Below, in pieces: positions 3,645 to 16,587 of a stretch of DNA of 64,000 nucleotides; within the stretch, counting starts at the first letter, position 1; every line of letters starts with the position of its first letter. The notes below the pieces were generated by a model. The model worked only from the letters and a program-made list of their open reading frames with translations. It made no database searches and was not told the origin of the DNA. The translations under genes and the position numbers were made by a program. The DNA comes from Burkholderiales bacterium (GTDB lineage Bacteria > Pseudomonadota > Gammaproteobacteria > Burkholderiales > SG8-41), in contig DATAJS010000013.1 in NCBI GenBank assembly GCA_036262035.1, positions 496,001-560,000 on the forward strand. The letters run 5' to 3'.

Positions 3645-4790
3645 TCATCCTCCCGTGAGTCGAAGCTCGGCTTCGAGTCGCGCGAGCCATGGGCGAAATT
3701 CTTCGAGCCAACGGCGACCCCGATGCCGTAACAGGTAACGATACGCGTCTTGCAGGGCGCGCAGCTTTCCCGGCGCCAAAGGCGCGGAGCGTGTGCTGCG
3801 CTTCGCGCGCATCATCCGCTCGCAGAAATCCACGATCGCGCGCCAGTGAGGCACCGCGCTCGCGCCGAACAGCCTAGCGGCCGCTTCCTCCCAACTTGCG
3901 TCGGGATCGTATGCGGCCGGGCGCGCCGCATAGTCGAAGCAGGTGGCGAGCGGCAGCAGGCTCAAGCGCTCCTGCACCAGCGGATTGTTGAGATAGCCGT
4001 AAACGACCTCGGGCAGCCTAGGGTCTCGGCCGGTCAGCGGCGCGAGGTGCATCTCGTCGCTCATCGCGCAATCGTTGACGGGGTAGTTGTCCCAGAGGAT
4101 CAGCGGATGCCGCAGCCGCCGCGCGGCCTCGCGCGCGTGAGCGAGCGAGATCGTGCGCGGCACGATGGCCGGACCGGTCCAGACACATGAGACCTCCCGA
4201 GGCAAGTGCTTGCCGAGCGTCTCCCAGAAGCACGGCTCGAAGGTTCCGAACGCGCGCGCAAGCCGCGGATCGTCGGTGTAGCGCGAGGGGCAGATCCACC
4301 ACTCCACGTTTTTCCACGATGCCGGCTGGCGCTCGAGGATCTTTGCCAGCCACAGCCCCTGCGCCCGCGCGAGGCTCCCTTTGTAATGCTTGCGATCTTC
4401 CGCGTGCACGAGACGTGAAGGGATGTCGTCGAAAAGAACCGCGAAGGTCCTGACGCCTGCGTCGTAGAAGCGCGCCGCCTTGTCGAGCAGGATCTCTACG
4501 GGCTGCGACGCGCAGAACGGCAGGCCCTTGCCCGGATGGAATCCGTAGACGAAATCGATGCGATGGTCCTGCGCGGCGCGGATGAGCTTCAGCAGCGATC
4601 GCCATTCGGCGCGCGGATACGGCTCTCTCCAGCGCTCGCGGTGATACGGATCGTCCTTGGGCGCGTAGAGATAGGTGTTCATCCCCCGCTGCGCGCCAAA
4701 CCGGAACAGCGCCCTGCGATGCCTCATGCTCCACGGCGGGCCGAAGAATCCTTCGACGATCCCTCGGCGTTGAAAGACGGGCCTGCCCAA
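3645..4790 (-). CDS. GH84-type beta-N-acetylglucosaminidase (O-GlcNAcase fold)
   Basis: About 381 residues with the signature of family GH84: RGIVEGFFGPPW at residues 9-20, YAPKDDPYHRERWREPYP at 42-59 (the lysine contacts the sugar acetamido group in this family) and the catalytic aspartate pair in FAVLFDDIPSR (D121, D122). This family removes terminal beta-linked GlcNAc by substrate-assisted catalysis. There is no signal peptide, so it should act in the cytoplasm. It lacks the extra C-terminal modules of secreted homologues. No ATG lies before the conserved start region; TTG at 4790 is the best candidate and may depend on coupling to the permease gene that ends 14 bases upstream. Context implies that imported GlcNAc-containing sugars are its substrate. 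Confidence 0.85.
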   Translation of the reverse strand: MGRPVFQRRGIVEGFFGPPWSMRHRRALFRFGAQRGMNTYLYAPKDDPYHRERWREPYPRAEWRSLLKLIRAAQDHRIDFVYGFHPGKGLPFCASQPVEILLDKAARFYDAGVRTFAVLFDDIPSRLVHAEDRKHYKGSLARAQGLWLAKILERQPASWKNVEWWICPSRYTDDPRLARAFGTFEPCFWETLGKHLPREVSCVWTGPAIVPRTISLAHAREAARRLRHPLILWDNYPVNDCAMSDEMHLAPLTGRDPRLPEVVYGYLNNPLVQERLSLLPLATCFDYAARPAAYDPDASWEEAAARLFGASAVPHWRAIVDFCERMMRAKRSTRSAPLAPGKLRALQDAYRYLLRHRGRRWLEEFRPWLARLEAELRLTGG

Positions 4791-4804
4791 CCGTGCGCTG
4801 CCCG

Positions 4805-5656
4805 TCAGCCTTTGACCGCGCCGGCGGTGAGCCCCGAGACGTAGTAGTCGAGGAAGAAGACGTAGAGGATGACGATGGGAATGGAGCCGAGCATCGCCCC
4901 CGCCATGAGCTGTCCCCAGTAGTAGATGTCGCCGCGGATCAGCTCCTGGGTCACGCCGACGCTCGCGGTGATCTCCTCCGAGGACGAGGTGAAGGTCAAC
5001 GCGTAGATGAACTCGTTCCAGGATAGCGTGAAGGCGAACAGCGCCGCACACACGAGCCCCGGCACGGCGATGGGAAGGATGATGTGCCAGAGCGCCTGGA
5101 TGCGCGTGCAGCCGTCGACGAGCGCGCACTCCTCCACTTCCTTCGGCACGGTGCGGAAGTAGCCGATGAGGAGCCAGGTGCAGAACGGCACGAGGAAAGT
5201 CGGATAGGTGACCACGAGCGCCCACTTGGAGTCGCCGAGCCCGAGCCAGTTCACCACCTGCGCAAGGGGCAGGAACAGGAGCGATGTCGGCACCAGATAG
5301 GTGACGAAAATCGCCGTCCCGAGGCCGCCCACGCCGATGAACGTGAGCCGCGCGAGCGCGTACGCAGCCACCGTCCCGATGACGAGCGACAGCGTCGTGG
5401 CCAGAAAAGTGACGAGCAGGCTGTTCTTGGCCCACGTCACGAACTCGCTTTCGGTCAGCAGCTTTTTGTAGTGATCGAAGGTGACCCCCTGCCGGATGAC
5501 GAGAGGTACCGCGGTCCGGTCGTACAGCTCGCGGTCCGACTTCAGCGACGTCGTCGCCATGTGATAGAACGGAAAGAGCGCGAACAGCAGGAACGGCACG
5601 AGCAGCAGATGGATGCCCAATTTCTTCCAGTGTCGCCGCTTCGCCACGCTCGCCAT
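4805..5656 (-). CDS. carbohydrate ABC transporter permease (MalG/UgpE-like)
   Basis: A 283-residue inner-membrane protein with about six transmembrane helices, starting with HLLLVPFLLFALFPFYHMATTSLK, and an EAA loop (ECALVDGCTRIQALWHIILP) that docks on the ATPase. It is the second permease of a CUT1-type sugar importer. The start at 5656 is chosen because the ATG overlaps the stop of the previous permease as TAATG and follows GGGAGGT; a longer frame upstream has no ribosome site. It works with the neighbouring permease, binding protein and ATPase. Confidence 0.93.
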   Translation of the reverse strand: MASVAKRRHWKKLGIHLLLVPFLLFALFPFYHMATTSLKSDRELYDRTAVPLVIRQGVTFDHYKKLLTESEFVTWAKNSLLVTFLATTLSLVIGTVAAYALARLTFIGVGGLGTAIFVTYLVPTSLLFLPLAQVVNWLGLGDSKWALVVTYPTFLVPFCTWLLIGYFRTVPKEVEECALVDGCTRIQALWHIILPIAVPGLVCAALFAFTLSWNEFIYALTFTSSSEEITASVGVTQELIRGDIYYWGQLMAGAMLGSIPIVILYVFFLDYYVSGLTAGAVKG

Positions 5657-6597
5657 TACAGGACCTCCCGCCGCACTGACCTCAACTGCGCCCACACCAC
5701 GAACATGAGCACGGGGAAGAGATAGAGCGAGATGGCCGCGCCCTCGCCGATCCGCCCCGTCTCCAGGCCCACCTGGCGCGAGAGGGTGGCGAAGAGATGG
5801 GTCGAGTTGATCGGGCCGCCGTGGGTGAGCACGTAGACGATGTTGAACTCGCTGAACGTGAAGATCGTCGAGAACAGGATCACGATGCCGAGCACGGGCT
5901 TGAGCAGCGGCAGCGTGATGTGCCAGAACCGCCTCACCGGACCGGCGCCGTCAGCCTCCGCCGCCTCGTAAAGTTCCTTGGGAATCGCCAGCAACCCCGC
6001 GAGGATCGTGATCGCGAAGAAGGGAAGCCCGCGCCAGATGTTCACGACGATCACGGCCGCCATGGCGTGGTACTTCTGTCCGAGCCAGTTCGGTCCGGGC
6101 GCATCCATGAAGTCGAGCGCGATGCCGGTCCAGTTCACCACGCTGTAGAGCGAGTTGAACATCCACCACCAGCCGAGCGTGGACAGCGCCGTGGGGATGA
6201 CCCAGGGCAGGAGCACCGCGCCCCGGATCCACCGCTTGAACCAGAGCTGCTGGCTCAGCAGCAGGGCGAGCGCGATACCCATCACGAGCTTGAAACCGAC
6301 CGAGATGCCGGTAAAGACAAAGGCGTTCTGGAAAGTCTGGCGGAAGGCATCGCTCTCCCAGAGGTTCACGAAGTTCCTGATCCCGGTGAACTCGGTGGGC
6401 CGTCCGATGAAGGCGTCGGACAACGAGAAGTAGACCGCCATGCAGAACGGATAGGCGACGAGCACGAGCAGGAGCAGCAGGGCCGGCGCCACGAACATGG
6501 GGCCGAGGACGCCCTCGCGATTGAGCCACTCCCCCACCCGCAATCCGAATCGCGGCCGGGGGGTCGCGGCGATGACGCCTGCGTGTGCGCTCGCCAT
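5656..6597 (-). CDS. carbohydrate ABC transporter permease (MalF/UgpA-like)
   Basis: A 313-residue inner-membrane protein. After a short cytoplasmic leader the first helix is MFVAPALLLLLVLVAYP, with about six helices in all, and the EAA loop is recognisable in ELYEAAEADGAGPVRRFWHI. It forms the heterodimeric channel of a CUT1-type sugar importer with the next gene, which overlaps it by one base. The gene follows the binding protein by 13 bases, so all are in one operon read leftward. Confidence 0.93.
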   Translation of the reverse strand: MASAHAGVIAATPRPRFGLRVGEWLNREGVLGPMFVAPALLLLLVLVAYPFCMAVYFSLSDAFIGRPTEFTGIRNFVNLWESDAFRQTFQNAFVFTGISVGFKLVMGIALALLLSQQLWFKRWIRGAVLLPWVIPTALSTLGWWWMFNSLYSVVNWTGIALDFMDAPGPNWLGQKYHAMAAVIVVNIWRGLPFFAITILAGLLAIPKELYEAAEADGAGPVRRFWHITLPLLKPVLGIVILFSTIFTFSEFNIVYVLTHGGPINSTHLFATLSRQVGLETGRIGEGAAISLYLFPVLMFVVWAQLRSVRREVL

Positions 6598-6610
6598 GAG
6601 GTTGCGCTCC

Positions 6611-7888
6611 TTACTTCTTCTCCAGGATCTTCTTCATTTCGTTCGCGCCCCAGGCGATGGCATCCCTGGTGGACGTGCCGGTGACCGCCTTGGCGACCAT
6701 GTTCGGCAGGATGAACGAATTGGTGATGAGCTGGACCTTGTCGCTCGCGGGCGCGGGCCAGCCGTAGCAATGGAACTGAACGCCTTCCTGCCTGAGCGCG
6801 GCGAACTTCGGATCGGTCTTGAGCACCGGATGATCGAGCAGGTTCGTGTACGCCGGAAGGTTGAACGCGTCACCCGACATGATGTACTCGTCGTAGACCT
6901 CGCGCTTGCCGAGCAGATAGCGGATCCATTCCTTGGCCGGCTCGACGTTCTTCGAGAACTTCCAGATGCCGATGTGGCGCGGCACGTCGGTCTCGTGACG
7001 CACGCCGTCGGGCCCGGCCAGGCTCCTGTGGTGATTGATGCCCTCTGCACTGGGGAGCTTGGAGTTGCGGGCGACGATGTAGGCGCTGACCGGGTTGTGG
7101 ATCCATCCCGCCTTGCCTTGCTGGAGCGACTGGTTGTTGCTGGCGTCGTCCCACGAGAGCACCTCGGGCTCCATGCAATCGCGAAACATCTTCTTGTACC
7201 ACTCGAGCATCCTGACCGTGTGCACGCCGTCGATGGCGACGGTCTTGCCGTCCTTCTCGACCTCCCTGCCCCCGAAAGACCAGAGCACGGGTCCCGCCGT
7301 GGAGATCGAGTCGTAGTTCTGGCTGATGGGGATGCCGACCGGGTGCCCCATCTTCTTCAGCTGCACGCCGACCGTGTAGAGATCGTCCCAGGTGTCGGGA
7401 ACCTTGAGCCCGGCCTTCTTGAAGAGATCCTCCCGATAGGCGGCCACGAAGAAGGTTCGATACTGCGGCACCGCGCGCCAGATCCCCTTGACCATGGCGG
7501 TCTCTTTGGCCGACGCGACCGCCGGTCCGTATTTCTTCTCCATCTCCCTCGCCACGTCGGACACGTCCACGAGCTGCGGCTCGTAGAGCCACGGGAAGTG
7601 CATGCGCATCTCGACGACGTCGTGTCCCGCCTGTGTCTGCACCTCGGACGCGTACTTCGCGGCCTGCTGCGGAGCCGCGATATGGTCGATTCGAATCCCG
7701 ATGCCGGTGTCCTTGGTGAAGCGCTGGCCGATCTGCGCCAGCTTCTTGTCCGAGGCGGGGGCGAAATTGTTCCAGCAAAGGTAGGAAATCTGGCGCTTCT
7801 GGCCGAACGCGGGCGGGATGCCCGTCGCGAGTATGCCGACGAGCCCGCCGGTCGTAGTCAGGAAGCGGCGGCGACTGATCTTGTCCAT
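6611..7888 (-). CDS. sugar ABC transporter extracellular binding protein (family 1), Tat-type signal
   Basis: A 425-residue solute-binding protein. The N terminus contains a twin-arginine signal (SRRRFLTTTGG) and a hydrophobic segment ending near PAFGQ, so export should be by Tat, already folded. The body has family-1 features: an N-terminal lobe with ISYLCWNNF, a hinge and many aromatic residues (WDDLY, WSFGG, WEWYKK-like helices) that in relatives stack on sugar rings. Substrate is not given by sequence, but a GH84 glucosaminidase in the same operon suggests GlcNAc oligomers or conjugates. It lies 21 bases after the ATPase gene. Confidence 0.92.
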   Translation of the reverse strand: MDKISRRRFLTTTGGLVGILATGIPPAFGQKRQISYLCWNNFAPASDKKLAQIGQRFTKDTGIGIRIDHIAAPQQAAKYASEVQTQAGHDVVEMRMHFPWLYEPQLVDVSDVAREMEKKYGPAVASAKETAMVKGIWRAVPQYRTFFVAAYREDLFKKAGLKVPDTWDDLYTVGVQLKKMGHPVGIPISQNYDSISTAGPVLWSFGGREVEKDGKTVAIDGVHTVRMLEWYKKMFRDCMEPEVLSWDDASNNQSLQQGKAGWIHNPVSAYIVARNSKLPSAEGINHHRSLAGPDGVRHETDVPRHIGIWKFSKNVEPAKEWIRYLLGKREVYDEYIMSGDAFNLPAYTNLLDHPVLKTDPKFAALRQEGVQFHCYGWPAPASDKVQLITNSFILPNMVAKAVTGTSTRDAIAWGANEMKKILEKK

Positions 7889-7909
7889 GCGCTCCTCCTC
7901 GGGTCGAAA

Positions 7910-9004
<1,095 letters not shown>

Positions 9005-9111: not shown

Positions 9112-10362
9112 TTATTTCCTGACAGGACCGCGCGACCAGCGCTGATCTAAACCCGCCTGCACCGCAGCAATCTCCTTCAGCCTCGGCAGCACCTCGCGGG
9201 CGAAGAGCCCAAGGCTCTTTTCGGTCTCGGCGTGGGTCATGAAGCCCGAGCGGCCGATCATCACGAGGTGGCCGTAACCGCCGACGAAGTCGTAGAGATC
9301 CATGATCTGTTTGTAGACGCTGTCGGGCGTGCCCGCGAACAGGATGCCCTGCGCGATCGCTCGTTCGGCGGTCATGCCGATCAGCGCGCCCCCGACCGAC
9401 GGCTTCATGGCGCTGGCCGCCTGCTGCGCTTCGGCGTTCGTGTCGGCCTTTGGCTTGGTGCGGTAGATCATCGGCGCGGCCTGCGGCGGTGCGACGCCGG
9501 CCAGGAACTTGTTGAACTGCGGCGCCGACTTCATGCTGGTGTTGAGGAACCACAGGAGCTTGTCGCCGAGGCGCAACCCTTCGTCTTCCGTTTCGCCCAC
9601 CGCCACCAGCGCCGCGTAACTGAAGCGGTCGGTCGTCGAAGGCGGCAATCCGGCCTCCGCACGCGCGCGGCGGTTCGCCGCGAACGCCGCGCGCGTGCCT
9701 TCGGGCCCGCGCAGCACCAGCGTGTGCACCATGCCGCGGCGGCCCACGTCGGCGGACGTCGACGCGTCACCCGTGGCCGACCACATGCGCGGCAGCGGCC
9801 GCTGGTAGCACGGCGGCCAGACGTTCACGTGCCGGTGGGTGAAGTGCCTGCCTTCCCAGCTGAACGGCGCGTCGTGCGAGGTCAGCGCTTTGGAGATGAG
9901 ATCGATCGCTTCCCAATAGCGCTCGCCGTTGTCGATCATGCTCACGTTGCTCGACGCCGACTCGCTGCCGCCGGATTTCACGAAGCCGATCTCGAGGCGC
10001 CCGCGGCTGATCACATCGGCCGTGGCGTATTCCTCGGCGATGCGCACCGGGTCCGGACGCAGCGTGACCAGTGTGCCGAGGCTCAGGATGCGCGCCTTGC
10101 GCGTCTGCCGCGCGAGGATCGCCACCAGCATGGGATTCGCGGCGAGCAGCGAGTTGATGCCGGCGTGATGCTCGATCGCGACGACGTTCAGTCCCAGCTC
10201 ATCGGCCAGCAGGAACTCGTCGATGCATTCCTCGAAGAGATCCGCCGCCACGTTCGGATCGCAGTAGCGGTTGGGCAGGCTCGCGCGCACCGACGGCGCG
10301 CGATCGAGCACGTCCTGCGCAACGAAGGGATACGGTATTTCACACTGGTACCAGACGTCCAT
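9112..10362 (-). CDS. LLM-class (luciferase-like) flavin-dependent oxidoreductase
   Basis: A 416-residue TIM-barrel protein of the bacterial luciferase superfamily. Visible features are VVAIEHHAG (FMN-binding face), the strand ILSLGTLVTLRPDPVRIAEE and RLEIGFVKSGG; near the C terminus FAGTPDSVYKQIMD is the usual helix of this family. These enzymes use reduced flavin (FMNH2 or F420H2) to oxidise alkanesulfonates, nitrilotriacetate, long-chain aldehydes and similar compounds. It is the last gene of a leftward three-gene unit (CoA-transferase, hydrolase, this), nine bases after the hydrolase stop. No flavin reductase is adjacent, so reduced flavin must come from elsewhere. Confidence 0.88.
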   Translation of the reverse strand: MDVWYQCEIPYPFVAQDVLDRAPSVRASLPNRYCDPNVAADLFEECIDEFLLADELGLNVVAIEHHAGINSLLAANPMLVAILARQTRKARILSLGTLVTLRPDPVRIAEEYATADVISRGRLEIGFVKSGGSESASSNVSMIDNGERYWEAIDLISKALTSHDAPFSWEGRHFTHRHVNVWPPCYQRPLPRMWSATGDASTSADVGRRGMVHTLVLRGPEGTRAAFAANRRARAEAGLPPSTTDRFSYAALVAVGETEDEGLRLGDKLLWFLNTSMKSAPQFNKFLAGVAPPQAAPMIYRTKPKADTNAEAQQAASAMKPSVGGALIGMTAERAIAQGILFAGTPDSVYKQIMDLYDFVGGYGHLVMIGRSGFMTHAETEKSLGLFAREVLPRLKEIAAVQAGLDQRWSRGPVRK

Positions 10363-10371
10363 GGTGTCGGC

Positions 10372-11145
10372 TCAGTCGGCGAGGAAGTTGCGCACGCGCG
10401 CGGCGAGCGCTTCGGGCTGCTCGATCTCGGGATGGTGGCCGGCATTGGCGATGCGCTCGAAGCGTGCGCCGGGAATCAGCCTCGCGTAGGCCTCGCCATA
10501 CGCGGGCTTCACCACACCGTCGGATGCGCCCCACAGCACCAGCGTCTTCGCCTTGATGTTGGAGAGCCAGCGCTTGAGCTGCGGGTTGTGCATGTAGGGA
10601 TGGAAGCCGTAGCGGGCGAGCGCTTCCCAGTTGCGCGAGCGGGTGACGAGCTCATCGTCTTCCATGTCGTCGTAGCGCGGCGCGAACTCTTTCGGATCGT
10701 GCCAGCTCTTGGCGACGACGTCCTCGGGATGCGCGTTGAACACGTCGAGGATGTCGGGCGTCTCGCGGCCGCTCACCTTGATGCCGAGCGCGTCGACGAG
10801 GATCAGCTTGTCGATGCGCCGCCCGGCCTTGATCGCGATCTCCGCGGCGAGCCAGCCGCCGAACGAGAGACCCATCAGCGTGAGCGGCCCCGGCGGCAGC
10901 GTATCGATCAAACCGAGATAGAGATGAACGAGGTCGTAGACCGTGCCGAAATCCGCCGGACGCGACGAGCGCCCGAAGCCGGGATGCGACGGCGCAATGA
11001 GCTGCGCCTCACGGGCGAGCAGATCGACGATCGCCAGCCGCGGGTCGATGTGCTGGAAACCGTGGAGCAGCAACAGGGGATTGCCCGCGCCTGCGCGCAG
11101 GATTTCGAGGTCGACGCCGGCGACCTGTTCGATTCGCGGCTGCAT
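10372..11145 (-). CDS. alpha/beta hydrolase
   Basis: A 257-residue cytoplasmic alpha/beta-hydrolase. The oxyanion region LLLLHGFQHID follows the first strands, and the nucleophile elbow is GLSFGGWLAAE with the catalytic serine. A late acid is likely in GASDGVVKP and the catalytic histidine in ANAGHHPEIEQPEA. Start at 11145 is preceded by GGGGAG and lies four bases from the CoA-transferase stop, so the genes are coupled. Members of this group hydrolyse esters, C-C bonds or acyl thioesters. With the neighbours, hydrolysis of a CoA-linked or ester intermediate is plausible but is inference. Confidence 0.88.
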   Translation of the reverse strand: MQPRIEQVAGVDLEILRAGAGNPLLLLHGFQHIDPRLAIVDLLAREAQLIAPSHPGFGRSSRPADFGTVYDLVHLYLGLIDTLPPGPLTLMGLSFGGWLAAEIAIKAGRRIDKLILVDALGIKVSGRETPDILDVFNAHPEDVVAKSWHDPKEFAPRYDDMEDDELVTRSRNWEALARYGFHPYMHNPQLKRWLSNIKAKTLVLWGASDGVVKPAYGEAYARLIPGARFERIANAGHHPEIEQPEALAARVRNFLAD

Positions 11146-11149
11146 GGGT

Positions 11150-13597
11150 CTACGGCTCCCCGCCCGATGCGGCATCGGCCCACTGCACGATGCCGCGCCG
11201 CCCCAGGTCTTCGATCTGTTGCTCGTCGTAGCCCAGCTCGCGCAACAGGGGGCGCGTGTGCTGCCCGATCTGCGCGGAGGCCTTGTAGAGGCCGGGCGTC
11301 AGCGAGAATTCGACGAGTCCGCCGTAACGCAGGTGCGTGCCGACGACCGGATGATCCACCTCGACGCTCAGCGCATTGGCCTTGGCGTGCGGATGGTCCG
11401 CATAGAACTCGCCCTCCGTCGCTTCGTCGGCGCGCACGCAGGCGACGTCGGCTTTGAGCAGCAGGTCTTCCCATTCGGCAGCGTCGCGGCCGGCGAAGAT
11501 CTTTGCGATCTCTGCGATCAAAGCGTCGTCGTTCTCCTCTCGCGCTTTTCGTGTCGTGAAGCGCGCATCGGCCGGCAGCTCCGGCCGCTGCACCGTTCGA
11601 CAGAATGCCTCCCACTCCTCCTGGAAGAGGCATCCGAGGAACACCCAGCCTTCGCGGCAGCGATAGAGCCGATACAACGCATGGAGCCCGTGAATGTCCG
11701 CGTCGGGCACTGCGATCGGAGGCCGGCCGGCATAGTCGTAATACTCGTCGGCATTGGTCCACGCGTTGGCGTTGAGCATCGTGACGCTGACGGGCTCGCC
11801 CTTGCCGCTCGCGTCTCGCGCGCGCAGGCCGAGCACGATGCCGGTGGCCACCGCCGCGGACGTGTTCTGATCGGGGCCCCAGTTGGACTTCATGATCCAG
11901 CGCGTCGCCTCGGCGATCTCTTCGACGTTCATGACCGTTTCCGGCGGCGGCGGCATGCCCCGGCCCATCTGCCGCATCGCGCCGCCCATGATGGCGCCGG
12001 GTATGGGATGCGCGCCCGGCCTGCGCGCATGCCGCCCGTTCGGACCGTAGGTGCCCATCCACGCATAGACGAGGCGCGGATTGATGCGGCGGCATGTCCC
12101 GGCATCGATCTTCAGACGCTCGGCGACGCCGAGACGATAGTTGTGCGAGAGCACATCGGCGCGGGCGATCAGCTTGTGCAGGATCTCCTTGCCCTCGGGC
12201 GTCTGGAGGTCGACCTGGAGGGTTTCCTTGCCGGAGTAGGTTCGCACGTCGGTCAGCGCCTGCGCCGACCAGCGCCGTCCTTCGTCGAGGCGCTTGTCGG
12301 TGGCGTCGACCTTGATCACGCGCGCGCCGAGATCGGCCAACAGCGAAGCGGCATACGGCCCGGCCTGAACCGTGGCGAGGTCGAGGACGGTCACGCCCGA
12401 CAGCGGATGAGCCGGCGCGTCGGCAGCGGCCGCGGTTTGGGCCACGGGCCGCAGGTGTCCCGACACTTCGGCGTTGTGCTGTCCGACGTCGGGCGCGGGT
12501 CCGCTCGGCGCGCCCGGCATTCCCTTCAACTCCGCCAGCGGCGCCAACGTGCGCAGACGCCCGACGCGCGGGTCGTCGATCGTGGTCACGCTGCCGTTCT
12601 CGAGCACCGCGGAATGCTCCATCGCCTGGACGCACGTGCGATAGGGCTCCGCCGCGATCTCGCCGTCTTCGAGGTAGATCTCCATCCACTCGTCGGCGGT
12701 TTTCTCCAGCTGCGCCTCGAGGATCTCCCGGCGCAGCAGCTCGCGATTCTCCGACCTGATCGACGGGACGCGCGCGAAGCGCTCGTCTTCGAGCAGGTGC
12801 CGGAGCCCGATCGCCTTCAAATGACCCTGGATGTGGGGCACGCGCTGGTTGGCGTGCTGAAGCCATACGCCGTCCTTGGTGCGCACCGGAACGTAGCCGA
12901 TGCTGGACTCGCCGCGGCCGCGCGGGGCGCGCGCGAACTTCGGGTCGCGGCGGCGCATCTGCACGTTCACCAGCCCGCCGTCGCCGACGTTGTTGTCGTG
13001 GGGAGAAGCCAGGCACTGCACGAGGCTGGTCTGCACCCATTGGCCACGCCCGGAGAGGTCCCGCACGCGCAAGGCGGCGATGATGCCGCGCACCGCCGCC
13101 TGGCTCGCGTGCCAGCTCGCGGTGGGTACCGCGGAGAACACCGGGCCGTCGCGGTTGGGCTGTCCCTGCAGGTTGAACATGCGGCCGGCCTTGGCCGCGA
13201 CGACGCCTTCGTAACCTTTGACGCGAGCGAGCGGACCCTTCTGCCCGAAGCCCGTGATGGAGCAGTAGACGAGCCGCGGATAGCGTTGCGACAGCGTGGC
13301 GTAGTCCAATTCCCAGCCGGCCATGTCGCCGGGACGGAACGATTCGACCAGCACATCCGCCGCACCGATGAGCTCGAGGGCTTGCTCGCGGCCTGCGGTC
13401 GTGGCGAGGTCGAGCGCGACGCCTTTCTTTCCGCGATTCCACGAGATCCACGCGGGCTGGAAACGGAACGGATCGCCGCCGGGAGGTTCCACCTTGATCA
13501 CGTCGGCGCCAAAATCGGCCATGACCAGCGTGCACAAGGCGCCGGGCATTCCCCATGAGAAATCCAGCACGGTCAATCCGGTACAGGGCCCCGGCAC
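11150..13597 (-). CDS. fused double class III (CaiB/BaiF) CoA-transferase
   Basis: An 815-residue protein made of two CaiB/BaiF domains (about residues 6-345 and 400-800) joined by an alanine/proline-rich linker. Each half starts with the family strand (GLTVLDFSWGMPGA, GVTVLDLATVQAGPY) and has the ADVL..SF/NYR motif. In single-domain relatives the nucleophile is an Asp in a GDxNT segment. The second half keeps it (GPDQNT, D576), but the first half has serine in the aligned place (TASWHAS, S161). So only the second half should form the glutamyl/aspartyl-CoA type intermediate. The GTG at 13597 follows GGAGGAGG, so I prefer it to the upstream ATG. The length and half-dead architecture recall DMSP-lyase DddD, but no DddD partner genes are near. 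Confidence 0.88.
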   Translation of the reverse strand: MPGPCTGLTVLDFSWGMPGALCTLVMADFGADVIKVEPPGGDPFRFQPAWISWNRGKKGVALDLATTAGREQALELIGAADVLVESFRPGDMAGWELDYATLSQRYPRLVYCSITGFGQKGPLARVKGYEGVVAAKAGRMFNLQGQPNRDGPVFSAVPTASWHASQAAVRGIIAALRVRDLSGRGQWVQTSLVQCLASPHDNNVGDGGLVNVQMRRRDPKFARAPRGRGESSIGYVPVRTKDGVWLQHANQRVPHIQGHLKAIGLRHLLEDERFARVPSIRSENRELLRREILEAQLEKTADEWMEIYLEDGEIAAEPYRTCVQAMEHSAVLENGSVTTIDDPRVGRLRTLAPLAELKGMPGAPSGPAPDVGQHNAEVSGHLRPVAQTAAAADAPAHPLSGVTVLDLATVQAGPYAASLLADLGARVIKVDATDKRLDEGRRWSAQALTDVRTYSGKETLQVDLQTPEGKEILHKLIARADVLSHNYRLGVAERLKIDAGTCRRINPRLVYAWMGTYGPNGRHARRPGAHPIPGAIMGGAMRQMGRGMPPPPETVMNVEEIAEATRWIMKSNWGPDQNTSAAVATGIVLGLRARDASGKGEPVSVTMLNANAWTNADEYYDYAGRPPIAVPDADIHGLHALYRLYRCREGWVFLGCLFQEEWEAFCRTVQRPELPADARFTTRKAREENDDALIAEIAKIFAGRDAAEWEDLLLKADVACVRADEATEGEFYADHPHAKANALSVEVDHPVVGTHLRYGGLVEFSLTPGLYKASAQIGQHTRPLLRELGYDEQQIEDLGRRGIVQWADAASGGEP

Positions 13598-13649: not shown

Positions 13650-14747
13650 ATGACGCTGCACTCCGCGGTCGAGCAGGAGATCAGGACTCTCATCCGCCAA
13701 TACGGACGGATCACGTTCGCGCAGTTCATGCAGGCTGCGCTGTACTCGCGGCGCGGGGGCTTCTACGCTTCGGACGCCCGGATCGATGCTCACTTCGGCA
13801 CCTCGGCCATGACTCACCCGGCGTTCGGAGCGCTGATCGCGCGCCAGTTGAGCGAGATGTGGCATCTCCTCGGAGCGCCGCGAGCGTTCGATGTGATCGA
13901 GGTGGGCTCGGGCGACGGCAGCCTGGCGCGATCGATCGTAGACGCGTGCCGGCGCACGGCGCCCGATTTCGCGCAAGCGCTCTGCTACGTCGCCGCGGAC
14001 TTCGAGCCTCGCGGGCCGCGGTCGCACCCCGACATCCGGCGCGTGAAAGCCGAAGGACTTGCGGCGTTCCGCAACGTCGTCGGCTGCATCCTGACCAACG
14101 AGCTCATCGACAACTTCCCCGTCCATCGCTTCTCCGTCCGGGACGGACGCATCGAAGAAATCTTCGTGACTGTCGAGAACGGTGAGCTCGCGGAAGTCCT
14201 GGGCGAGCCGTCATCGCCGCGCATCGAAGAACGGATCGCGAGCCTGGGTCTCGACCTGCCCGAAGGGTTTCGAGGCGAGGTGAACCTGCGCCTCGAAGAC
14301 TGGACTCGCGAGCTTGCGCGTGCGCTGGACCGCGGCTTCGTCTTGACGATCGACTACGGCGGCACGGCGAGCGAGCTCTACTGCGGCGGCGATACGCTGG
14401 TGTGCTACCACCGGCACGCCGTTCGGCAAGATCCGTATCGCGACATCGGCCGGCAGGACATCACCTGCCACGTCGACTTCACGTCGCTGATGCGGCTCGG
14501 CGAGCGCCATGGGCTCACCACCGTCGGCTACACGACGCAGCGGCAGTTCCTGACGAACCTCGGCTTCCCGTCGCTGCTGGCCGCGCTCGAGACACAGGAC
14601 GTCTCCGCCGCACGCGGGGCATTGAGCCGTCTCGCGATGAACGCGCTGGTGGACCCGCAGGACTACGGCGACCTCGAGGTGCTCGCGCAGGCGAAAGGCC
14701 TCGCGCGCGACGTGCGCCTCGCGGGGTTCGCGCGGCCGGCCCCTTGA
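13650..14747 (+). CDS. MidA/NDUFAF7-type SAM-dependent methyltransferase
   Basis: A 365-residue protein resembling the MidA/NDUFAF7 (DUF185) group, which in mitochondria methylates a complex I arginine. Recognisable parts are FMQAALYSRRGGFYAS near residue 25, the SAM site VIEVGSGDGSLARSI near 90, CILTNELIDNFPVHR at about 150 (the family NELxDAxP motif) and VLTIDYGG at about 230. Soluble, no signal peptide. Start at 13650 is the only ATG that gives the usual family N terminus. It is divergent from the double CoA-transferase with 52 bases between and ends next to an inverted-repeat element. Confidence 0.8.
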   Translation: MTLHSAVEQEIRTLIRQYGRITFAQFMQAALYSRRGGFYASDARIDAHFGTSAMTHPAFGALIARQLSEMWHLLGAPRAFDVIEVGSGDGSLARSIVDACRRTAPDFAQALCYVAADFEPRGPRSHPDIRRVKAEGLAAFRNVVGCILTNELIDNFPVHRFSVRDGRIEEIFVTVENGELAEVLGEPSSPRIEERIASLGLDLPEGFRGEVNLRLEDWTRELARALDRGFVLTIDYGGTASELYCGGDTLVCYHRHAVRQDPYRDIGRQDITCHVDFTSLMRLGERHGLTTVGYTTQRQFLTNLGFPSLLAALETQDVSAARGALSRLAMNALVDPQDYGDLEVLAQAKGLARDVRLAGFARPAP

Positions 14748-14870: not shown

Positions 14871-16163
14871 TTAGTTCGGAGAGACGCTGAACGTCATGAA
14901 GCCGCAGCTGTCGGGCGTGTTGCAGCCCGCGAGCGCGGTCTCGGCGCGTGCCGTCACCTGCCGCGCACCCGCCGTGCCTCGCAGCTGTTCGAGGCTGTCC
15001 GAGAAGAGGCACGAGCGCGTGCGCCCCGTCCCGTTGTTGCCGCCACTCGACAGGAACGGGTGCGGGCCTTCCACCCGGATGTCTTCCGCATAGAAGTCGT
15101 GCGCCTCGCCCCACTTCACGCCGTGCCACTGGAACCCTTCGAGGAACTGCTGCGTGAAGGTGAGATAACCGTCGTACGGATTGAAGATGTCGATGTCCCG
15201 GATGTTCAATCCCGATCCTTCTTCCATCTTCCTCGCCATGCTCGCGCACGCGGCCTGATGCTCGTCCAGCGTCGCCATGGTGCTGCGGCCCTTACCGGCG
15301 TTCTGCGCATGGTTGAGCACGTAGACCGGCTTCTGCCTCAGGTGCTTCGCGCGCTCGGCGGTCGTGAAGATGAACGCCGCGCACGTGTTCACGGGCCGAT
15401 CGCAGTCGTGAACCACCAGCGGCTCTTCGATCACGCGCGCATTCAGGTATTCCTCGCGCGTGAGCTGATGCGGCTCGTGCAACGCGTAGTAGCTCCACGG
15501 CGTTCTCAGGCCGTTCCTGCGCAGGTTCAGGCACAGCGGCGCGAGCCCGTCGTGCGACTTGCCGTACTTCTTGCAATACTGGAGGAAGACGACGAGATTG
15601 TTGAACATCGCGCCGTTCTGATAACCCCACGGGAACGCGAAGGCATTGTTCCCCGAGACTTCCTTCCTGCTGTTCTCGGGATTGTTGTGTCCGTAGCGGC
15701 CCGAGAGATTCACCATCGGGTACCACACCAGCACGGTCTTGCATAAACCGTCGCCGACCGCCTGGGCGGCCAGTCCCATCATCGGCCCGATGTACGGCGC
15801 CTTGGACTCGCGGTACTTGACGTTCTTCAATCCCAGCTGCTTCTCGATCCACCCCGCCGAAGCCTTGGTGAGCCCGTCCTCGGTGTCGTACGGCGGATCG
15901 AAGTACGGCCGCGGCGCCCAGGTCTGCTCGGCTCGGGTTTCTTCACTGGTGATCAACCCGTCGATGTCGTCCAGCGAGAGGCCGGCATCGGCGATCGCTT
16001 TCAGGCAGGCTTCCTTGCTCAGCCCGCCGCAACTCCGGTCGAGCGTCACGCCGTCCCAGCGCCGGTCGATGTGGGATTGGCCCCAGCCGACGACCGCGAC
16101 CTTGCCGCGGTGCTCCCAGAGCCCCATGCCTTCGCGGCTTCTCATCCAGTTGGTTTCAGCCAT
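14871..16163 (-). CDS. thiolase-like protein (SCP-x/Ltp2 type), no catalytic cysteine at the usual site
   Basis: A 430-residue thiolase-fold protein. The N-terminal part has VAVVGWGQSHIDRRW and the ADAGLSLDDIDGLIT helix common to lipid-transfer thiolases; the C-terminal part has NPYDGYLTFTQQFLEG and LSSGGNNGTGR. In true thiolases a cysteine precedes the G..A.QA..G helix; here the aligned stretch reads KAPYIGPMMGLAAQAVGDG and has none. Proteins of this kind that pair with a DUF35 partner (Ltp2 with a ChsH2-type domain) act as acyl-CoA retro-aldolases. The partner is the overlapping gene upstream. A role in C-C cleavage of a hydroxyacyl-CoA is therefore likely but is inferred. Confidence 0.82.
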   Translation of the reverse strand: MAETNWMRSREGMGLWEHRGKVAVVGWGQSHIDRRWDGVTLDRSCGGLSKEACLKAIADAGLSLDDIDGLITSEETRAEQTWAPRPYFDPPYDTEDGLTKASAGWIEKQLGLKNVKYRESKAPYIGPMMGLAAQAVGDGLCKTVLVWYPMVNLSGRYGHNNPENSRKEVSGNNAFAFPWGYQNGAMFNNLVVFLQYCKKYGKSHDGLAPLCLNLRRNGLRTPWSYYALHEPHQLTREEYLNARVIEEPLVVHDCDRPVNTCAAFIFTTAERAKHLRQKPVYVLNHAQNAGKGRSTMATLDEHQAACASMARKMEEGSGLNIRDIDIFNPYDGYLTFTQQFLEGFQWHGVKWGEAHDFYAEDIRVEGPHPFLSSGGNNGTGRTRSCLFSDSLEQLRGTAGARQVTARAETALAGCNTPDSCGFMTFSVSPN

Positions 16164-16587
16164 GGGCCACCACCTTCCACTCCGGAATCAACTGACCGTT
16201 GCTCGTCTCCTCGAAAATCAGCTCGACGGGCGCGCCCTGCGGCACGTCGCCGGGCGCCCTGTCCGGAAGGTTGGAGAGGAAGTTGATGCCCGGATCCTCG
16301 TCCAGCGTGATCACCGCGAAGTTGACCGGTTGCGCCGACTGGAATCCCTTGATGCGCGAATCGCGTATGACGAAGTAGACGTCGATGTGACCCCTGCCGC
16401 GCACCTCTTTCCACTCGAGCTTGTCGGCGGAGCCGCACTTCGAGCATTTCTGCGTGGGCGGATAGTGCAGCCGCGAGCACGCGGTGCAGTTCTGAAGAAC
16501 CAGTCGCCGTTCGTTGCACGCAGCCCAGAACGGTTGGGTCAGCTCGTTGGGAACAGGGGCAGGTCTTTGCAAACCTTCGATCGACAT
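16156..16587 (-). CDS. DUF35 zinc-ribbon/OB-fold protein
   Basis: A 143-residue cytoplasmic protein. A rubredoxin-like zinc ribbon is seen as CTAC (C34, C37) and CSKC (C48, C51), followed by an OB-fold with VYFVIRDSRIKGFQ and ending in PEWKVVAHG. DUF35 proteins bind acyl-CoA ends and partner thiolase-like enzymes. The gene overlaps the thiolase-like gene by eight bases, so the two products are very likely made together and form one complex. The gene starts 72 bases from the divergent TPR gene. Confidence 0.9.
   Translation of the reverse strand: MSIEGLQRPAPVPNELTQPFWAACNERRLVLQNCTACSRLHYPPTQKCSKCGSADKLEWKEVRGRGHIDVYFVIRDSRIKGFQSAQPVNFAVITLDEDPGINFLSNLPDRAPGDVPQGAPVELIFEETSNGQLIPEWKVVAHG

Follow-up and report, generated by a model that had tools for sequence, protein, structure and literature searches.

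Does a CoA-transferase built of two fused CaiB/BaiF domains, only one of which retains a catalytic aspartate, cleave DMSP in the manner of DddD, or does it serve some other pathway? The question is raised by a gene at 11150..13597 on the minus strand of the window, which is the complete 64,000-nucleotide stretch of DNA analysed here, from a soil-type betaproteobacterium. The gene starts with a GTG at 13597, has an AGGAGG at 13609-13604 with a spacing of 6 nt, ends with a stop codon at 11152-11150, and encodes an 815-residue product. Two PF02515 domains are found in this product, as originally predicted (Pfam E 3.9e-160; 533 bits vs a curated cut-off of 23.3), and by domain score together with the position of its predicted Asp nucleophile it is a tandem class III (CaiB/BaiF, PF02515) CoA-transferase. 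Half one (residues 1-385; 12443..13597, minus strand) lacks the nucleophile, and half two (residues 393-815; 11150..12421, minus strand) is predicted to be catalytically equipped.

The residues named in the original prediction lie exactly where it placed them. Ser161 (codon 13115..13117, minus strand) occupies the class III nucleophile position of half one in our alignments, and Asp576 (codon 11870..11872, minus strand) is the predicted nucleophile of half two. An HMMER alignment places Asp576 on the 'GDSNTG' Asp segment of the Acetobacter formyl-CoA:oxalate CoA-transferase (3UBM), and an alignment of tandem halves with single-domain CaiB proteins places it in the same column as D178 in chain B of BbsEF, the succinyl-CoA:(R)-benzylsuccinate CoA-transferase. 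Counted from the printed alignment, the chain B Asp in 9FN0 is residue 178, and the title of 9FOL reads 'D178-CoA adduct', so that D178 is the CoA-bearing residue in a solved relative. Like the window protein, BbsEF combines two different class III units, although these are separate subunits rather than fused halves. Ser161 and Asp576 are both invariant in 17 orthologues. Among 48 aligned tandem CaiB proteins, Asp occupies the position in half two in every case and in half one in none, where the residue is mostly Ser but may be Thr, Cys, Ala, Gly or Tyr; single-domain CaiB proteins have Asp there in 31 of 33 cases. Together with the invariance among orthologues, this consistency takes the dead first half beyond chance.

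The formyl-CoA:oxalate CoA-transferases (FRC, YfdW) share the fold, the Asp nucleophile and a Gln17-type VQAGP motif with half two. FRC forms a homodimer whose two sites are identical, whereas the window protein corresponds to a fused dimer with one predicted site. The counterpart of Gln17 is Gln411 (codon 12365..12367, minus strand; window-family alignment), and all ten window-family proteins have a Gln of this type, whereas the 38 other tandem proteins lack it, with Ile in DddD. Gln411 is therefore a candidate specificity feature. An AlphaFold2 model of the full 815-residue protein has a pLDDT of 47 and was set aside. Half two modelled separately has a pLDDT of 67, and its Foldseek matches are all class III CoA-transferases, with a TM of about 0.5 and an rmsd of about 20 A that make the site geometry unusable.

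Half one is not drifting. Its dN/dS is 0.07-0.11, compared with 0.07-0.14 for half two (window gene vs its 86% homologue, and SAR202 homologues pairwise), and the SWHASQAA segment around Ser161 is invariant in 17 sequences. Purifying selection on half one is thus as strong as on half two, which marks the dead half as a kept partner and not debris; constraint of this kind is expected of a partner needed for structure or binding. A decaying pseudogene half is ruled out by the dN/dS values.

Five DddD proteins were available for comparison. Sinorhizobium fredii NGR234 and Rhizobium leguminosarum WSM2304 are reported to carry dddD (PMC3338564); the NGR234 reference was found by homology on pNGR234b, where it is flanked by genes for LysR regulators, a GMC oxidoreductase and a glycine-betaine-type ABC transporter. 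The other references were taken from loci that encode BCCT transporters, methylmalonate-semialdehyde dehydrogenase or iron alcohol dehydrogenase, and from WSM2304 and Paraburkholderia. In each of the five, half one carries Ser and half two Asp, which bears out the original statement that DddD keeps its aspartate only in the second half. The window protein has the same tandem PF02515 layout, belongs to the same length class and descends from the same old fusion, so the proposed DddD-like architecture holds as a description. It does not single out DddD, since an Asp confined to half two in 48 of 48 tandem proteins is a mark of the whole group.

When the 48 tandem proteins are placed in a maximum-likelihood tree, the window protein and its Chloroflexota homologues form a 100/100 clade nested among a wider set of SAR202/Dehalococcoidia tandem proteins, next to which lie tandem proteins of Sphingomonas, Rhodococcus and Mycobacterium. 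A second 100/100 clade, apart from this one, holds DddD and its nearest relatives, and its sister group consists of betaproteobacterial tandem proteins of ~750 residues. The window protein and DddD thus lie in two distinct, well-supported clades. When the halves are separated, 26 of 27 N-halves group together and 26 of 27 C-halves do likewise (SH-aLRT support only), which indicates a single old fusion that joined a dead domain to a live one, and from which DddD and the window protein would both descend. The exception is a 925-residue ORF with two CaiB domains elsewhere in the window's genome (contig C11, 57289-59763; locus L071, 7281-9566), which has Tyr in half one and the nucleophile in half two. 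It groups with both subunit types of an unfused CaiB pair and appears to be a second, independent fusion of the same polarity.

A DddD-type CoA-transferase/lyase with DMSP or a closely analogous betaine as its substrate would account for the length class, the old fusion and the dead half one, but we regard it as very improbable. The window protein is 25.6% identical to NGR234 DddD, belongs to another clade with other tandem families in between, and has SNWGPD in place of the HAH(V/L)GT(I/L)D signature common to the five DddD proteins. A DddD query against the window's own genome finds its best match in a different tandem gene, on contig C10. No BCCT or betaine (OpuAC-type) transporter and no ddd-type gene set is found beside the window gene, whereas such genes adjoin the DddD references, and the sole BCCT gene of the genome is ~400 kb from the CoA-transferase. 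A DMSP/DddD assignment is rejected on the tree, the signature, the reciprocal search and the gene context. The original suggestion of a new activity on the DddD scaffold survives. Two plasmid loci of Ruegeria and Dinoroseobacter encode proteins that are sister to DddD at 45-47% identity but have no ddd-type neighbours; transferring the DddD name to them automatically would be doubtful.

The dark ocean holds abundant SAR202 bacteria, whose most expanded protein families include the CaiB proteins. A 2017 study of SAR202 described this expansion, reported Marinomonas DddD as the top Swiss-Prot match for a subset of the CaiB proteins and suggested unknown lyase functions (PMC5395668); the CaiB functions proposed there rest on annotation (PMC5395668). 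Such a match could be read in favour of DMSP cleavage in the window family, but with so few tandem proteins characterised, a top match to one of them carries little weight. A dead first half combined with DddD as top match is accordingly no evidence for DMSP cleavage, and annotation on this basis is unsafe because every tandem CaiB protein examined has a dead first half.

To which organisms, then, does this family belong? A scan of 84,980 species genomes with exact short peptides, which detects close relatives only, gave 16 relatives. One, at 86% identity, belongs to the same betaproteobacterial genus, and the other 15 are 74-79% identical over the full length. Of these 15, 14 carry a Chloroflexota, Dehalococcoidia or SAR202 label, and one (L040) is labelled only Proteobacteria. 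Among 294 SAR202-class genomes, 52 have a tandem protein at E 1e-130, while no orthologue was found at E 1e-100 in 369 sampled genomes of the window's class, its own genome excepted, and a scan of viral contigs yielded no relatives. Full-length identity of 74-79% and membership of one clade identify the window protein as orthologous to the SAR202 tandem CoA-transferase genes, and its nested position within a Chloroflexota clade suggests horizontal transfer from SAR202-like bacteria to the betaproteobacterium. An assembly or binning artefact is unlikely, because the cassette lies within a 667-kb contig and an 86% copy is present in a second genome of the genus.

The genes immediately downstream encode an alpha/beta hydrolase (10372..11145, minus strand; Pfam and codon-usage gene call), 4 bp behind the CoA-transferase stop, and an LLM flavin monooxygenase (9112..10362, minus strand; Pfam E 7.5e-33), 9 bp behind the hydrolase. 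With this operon-like spacing both are probably cotranscribed with the CoA-transferase. Orthologues of the two were not found beside the CoA-transferase homologues, which places them outside the conserved cassette. Upstream and divergent from the CoA-transferase is a PF02636 SAM-dependent methyltransferase of about 365 residues (13650..14747, plus strand, start approximate; Pfam E 1.3e-51), followed by a thiolase-fold protein of 430 residues (14871..16163, minus strand) and a DUF35/OB-fold zinc-ribbon partner protein of 143 residues (16156..16587, minus strand). The DUF35 and thiolase-fold genes overlap by 8 bp.

These upstream genes are kept with the CoA-transferase in the relatives. Fourteen of the 15 loci at 74-79% identity are informative, the fifteenth contig ending just after the CoA-transferase. 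A thiolase-fold gene lies near the CoA-transferase in all 14 (81-85% identity) and a DUF35 gene in 13 (76-81%), with the DUF35 end falling at the contig edge in L038; the PF02636 methyltransferase is present in 11 of the more distant loci (58-64%). Loci L038 and L039 have the order and orientation of the window, with DUF35, thiolase-fold, methyltransferase in reverse, and CoA-transferase. DUF35 genes are sparse, numbering 9 in 7.1 Mb and 11 in 4.4 Mb, and we estimate the chance of DUF35 adjacency at ~1-2% per gene, with the qualification that orthologous loci are not independent. The original prediction contrasted the neighbours with ddd loci, and the lack of a ddd set is correct; the relevant neighbours, however, are those upstream and not the unconserved hydrolase and LLM genes on which that contrast was drawn. 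The conserved linkage also suggests that the DUF35, thiolase-fold and methyltransferase genes moved with the CoA-transferase, the SAR202-like bacteria being the putative source.

If the protein were an ordinary CoA-transferase that acts on a small or medium acid, with neighbours placed beside it by genome history only, this would fit the variation of the hydrolase and LLM genes between relatives and the abundance of CaiB genes, of which the window's genome has 58 matches. Conservation of the block across two phyla, with the gene order of the window repeated in L038 and L039, argues against this reading, and we consider it distinctly improbable. The partnership does have limits within the wider family. 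In the sister genome G003 the 86% CoA-transferase adjoins a lactonase, an amidohydrolase and a TauD dioxygenase, and no close thiolase-fold gene is found in that genome, so the partnership is not obligatory there. Many SAR202 tandem genes that are more distantly related also lack the DUF35/thiolase pair in the flanks examined.

In the PDB, the thiolase-fold protein and the DUF35 protein both match the ChsH2/Ltp2 steroid aldolase (6OK1), the DUF35 protein matching ChsH2 in chain B, and the benzoylsuccinyl-CoA thiolase subunit in 7PXP is matched more weakly; the thiolase-fold protein is a relative of the Ltp2/Sal aldolases and of BbsB. The window pair is related to the Ltp2-ChsH2(DUF35) aldolase with only distant sequence similarity (E 7.5e-16). 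In an HMMER alignment the conserved Tyr of a PYDGY motif in the window protein falls on Ltp2 Tyr294, but the position of Ltp2 Tyr344, which is His in true thiolases, is Arg. No Cys is present in the usual thiolase nucleophile segment of the window protein, and the alignment shows the usual His to be absent too. A retained Tyr294 counterpart, Arg at Tyr344 and no thiolase Cys together favour C-C cleavage of a retro-aldol rather than a thiolytic type, as we infer from the alignments.

The BbsEF pathway likewise includes a DUF35-type/thiolase pair, BbsAB, and a BbsEF-like linkage of CoA-transferase to such a pair is present in the window and in all informative SAR202-type loci. No benzylsuccinate or arylsuccinate beta-oxidation genes were found among the window genes scanned. 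An unfused CaiB pair, one Glu-type and one Asp-type, is present in the window's genome on contig C13 (390.0-394.5 kb; L086, 10003-14523). It adjoins thiolase-fold and DUF35 genes whose products are 53% and 54% identical to the window proteins, and its Asp-type member has as best PDB match the BbsEF subunit with D178. CaiB and DUF35/thiolase genes also lie together beside 44% SAR202 tandem paralogues and in Mycobacterium branderi, so that tandem or paired CaiB proteins with a DUF35/thiolase pair are a recurring arrangement.

We think it probable that the window gene encodes a single-site fused CoA-transferase feeding a CoA-dependent, C-C-cleaving DUF35/thiolase-fold pair, and that this block was acquired from the SAR202/Dehalococcoidia clade. 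In the CoA-transferase, two class III domains would be joined covalently into a pseudo-heterodimer with a single working site, half one serving as a structural, and possibly CoA- or substrate-binding, partner in an interlocked dimer. Asp576 would take the acyl group from a donor acyl-CoA, form an aspartyl-CoA thioester and pass the CoA to an acceptor carboxylic acid. The new CoA thioester would most likely go to the DUF35/thiolase-fold pair for C-C cleavage, a division of labour like that between BbsEF and BbsAB.

Alternatively, the protein could be a CoA-transferase/lyase that works in the DddD manner on a substrate other than DMSP, with transfer at Asp576 followed by elimination, so that the thiolase-fold pair would not be needed. 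DddD and the window protein do share the tandem scaffold, G003 keeps the gene without a thiolase-fold partner, and the SAR202 authors also proposed unknown lyase functions (PMC5395668). This is nonetheless unlikely given that the cassette is kept in all informative SAR202-type loci, and no residue-level sign of a lyase was found.

Judged by its clade and gene context, the window protein is not a DddD and is a member of an uncharacterised SAR202-type tandem class III clade with a conserved gene block, of which a limited literature search found no description. The single-site CoA-transferase feeding the DUF35/thiolase-fold pair may, more tentatively, belong to an undescribed SAR202 catabolic module of four genes that activates and cleaves a recalcitrant carboxylic acid and moved as a block into a betaproteobacterium. 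Such a module would comprise the fused single-site CoA-transferase, a thiolase-fold C-C lyase without Cys/His, the DUF35 protein and the SAM methyltransferase. The four-gene block, present also in a betaproteobacterium, narrows the role of one SAR202 CaiB protein and offers a clear gene set for expression.

Several other features were observed in these loci. The window lacks a family of short ORFs that lies behind the CoA-transferase at L037 10603-10962 and in 10 further SAR202 loci. The SAR202 locus L039 also encodes a single-domain CaiB protein (357-1550) whose nucleophile position holds Trp and which is probably the dead subunit of a different pair. Elsewhere in the window, a PF07555 (GH84-type) beta-N-acetylglucosaminidase ORF (3645-5435, minus strand) adjoins a sugar-type ABC transporter at 4805-9004.
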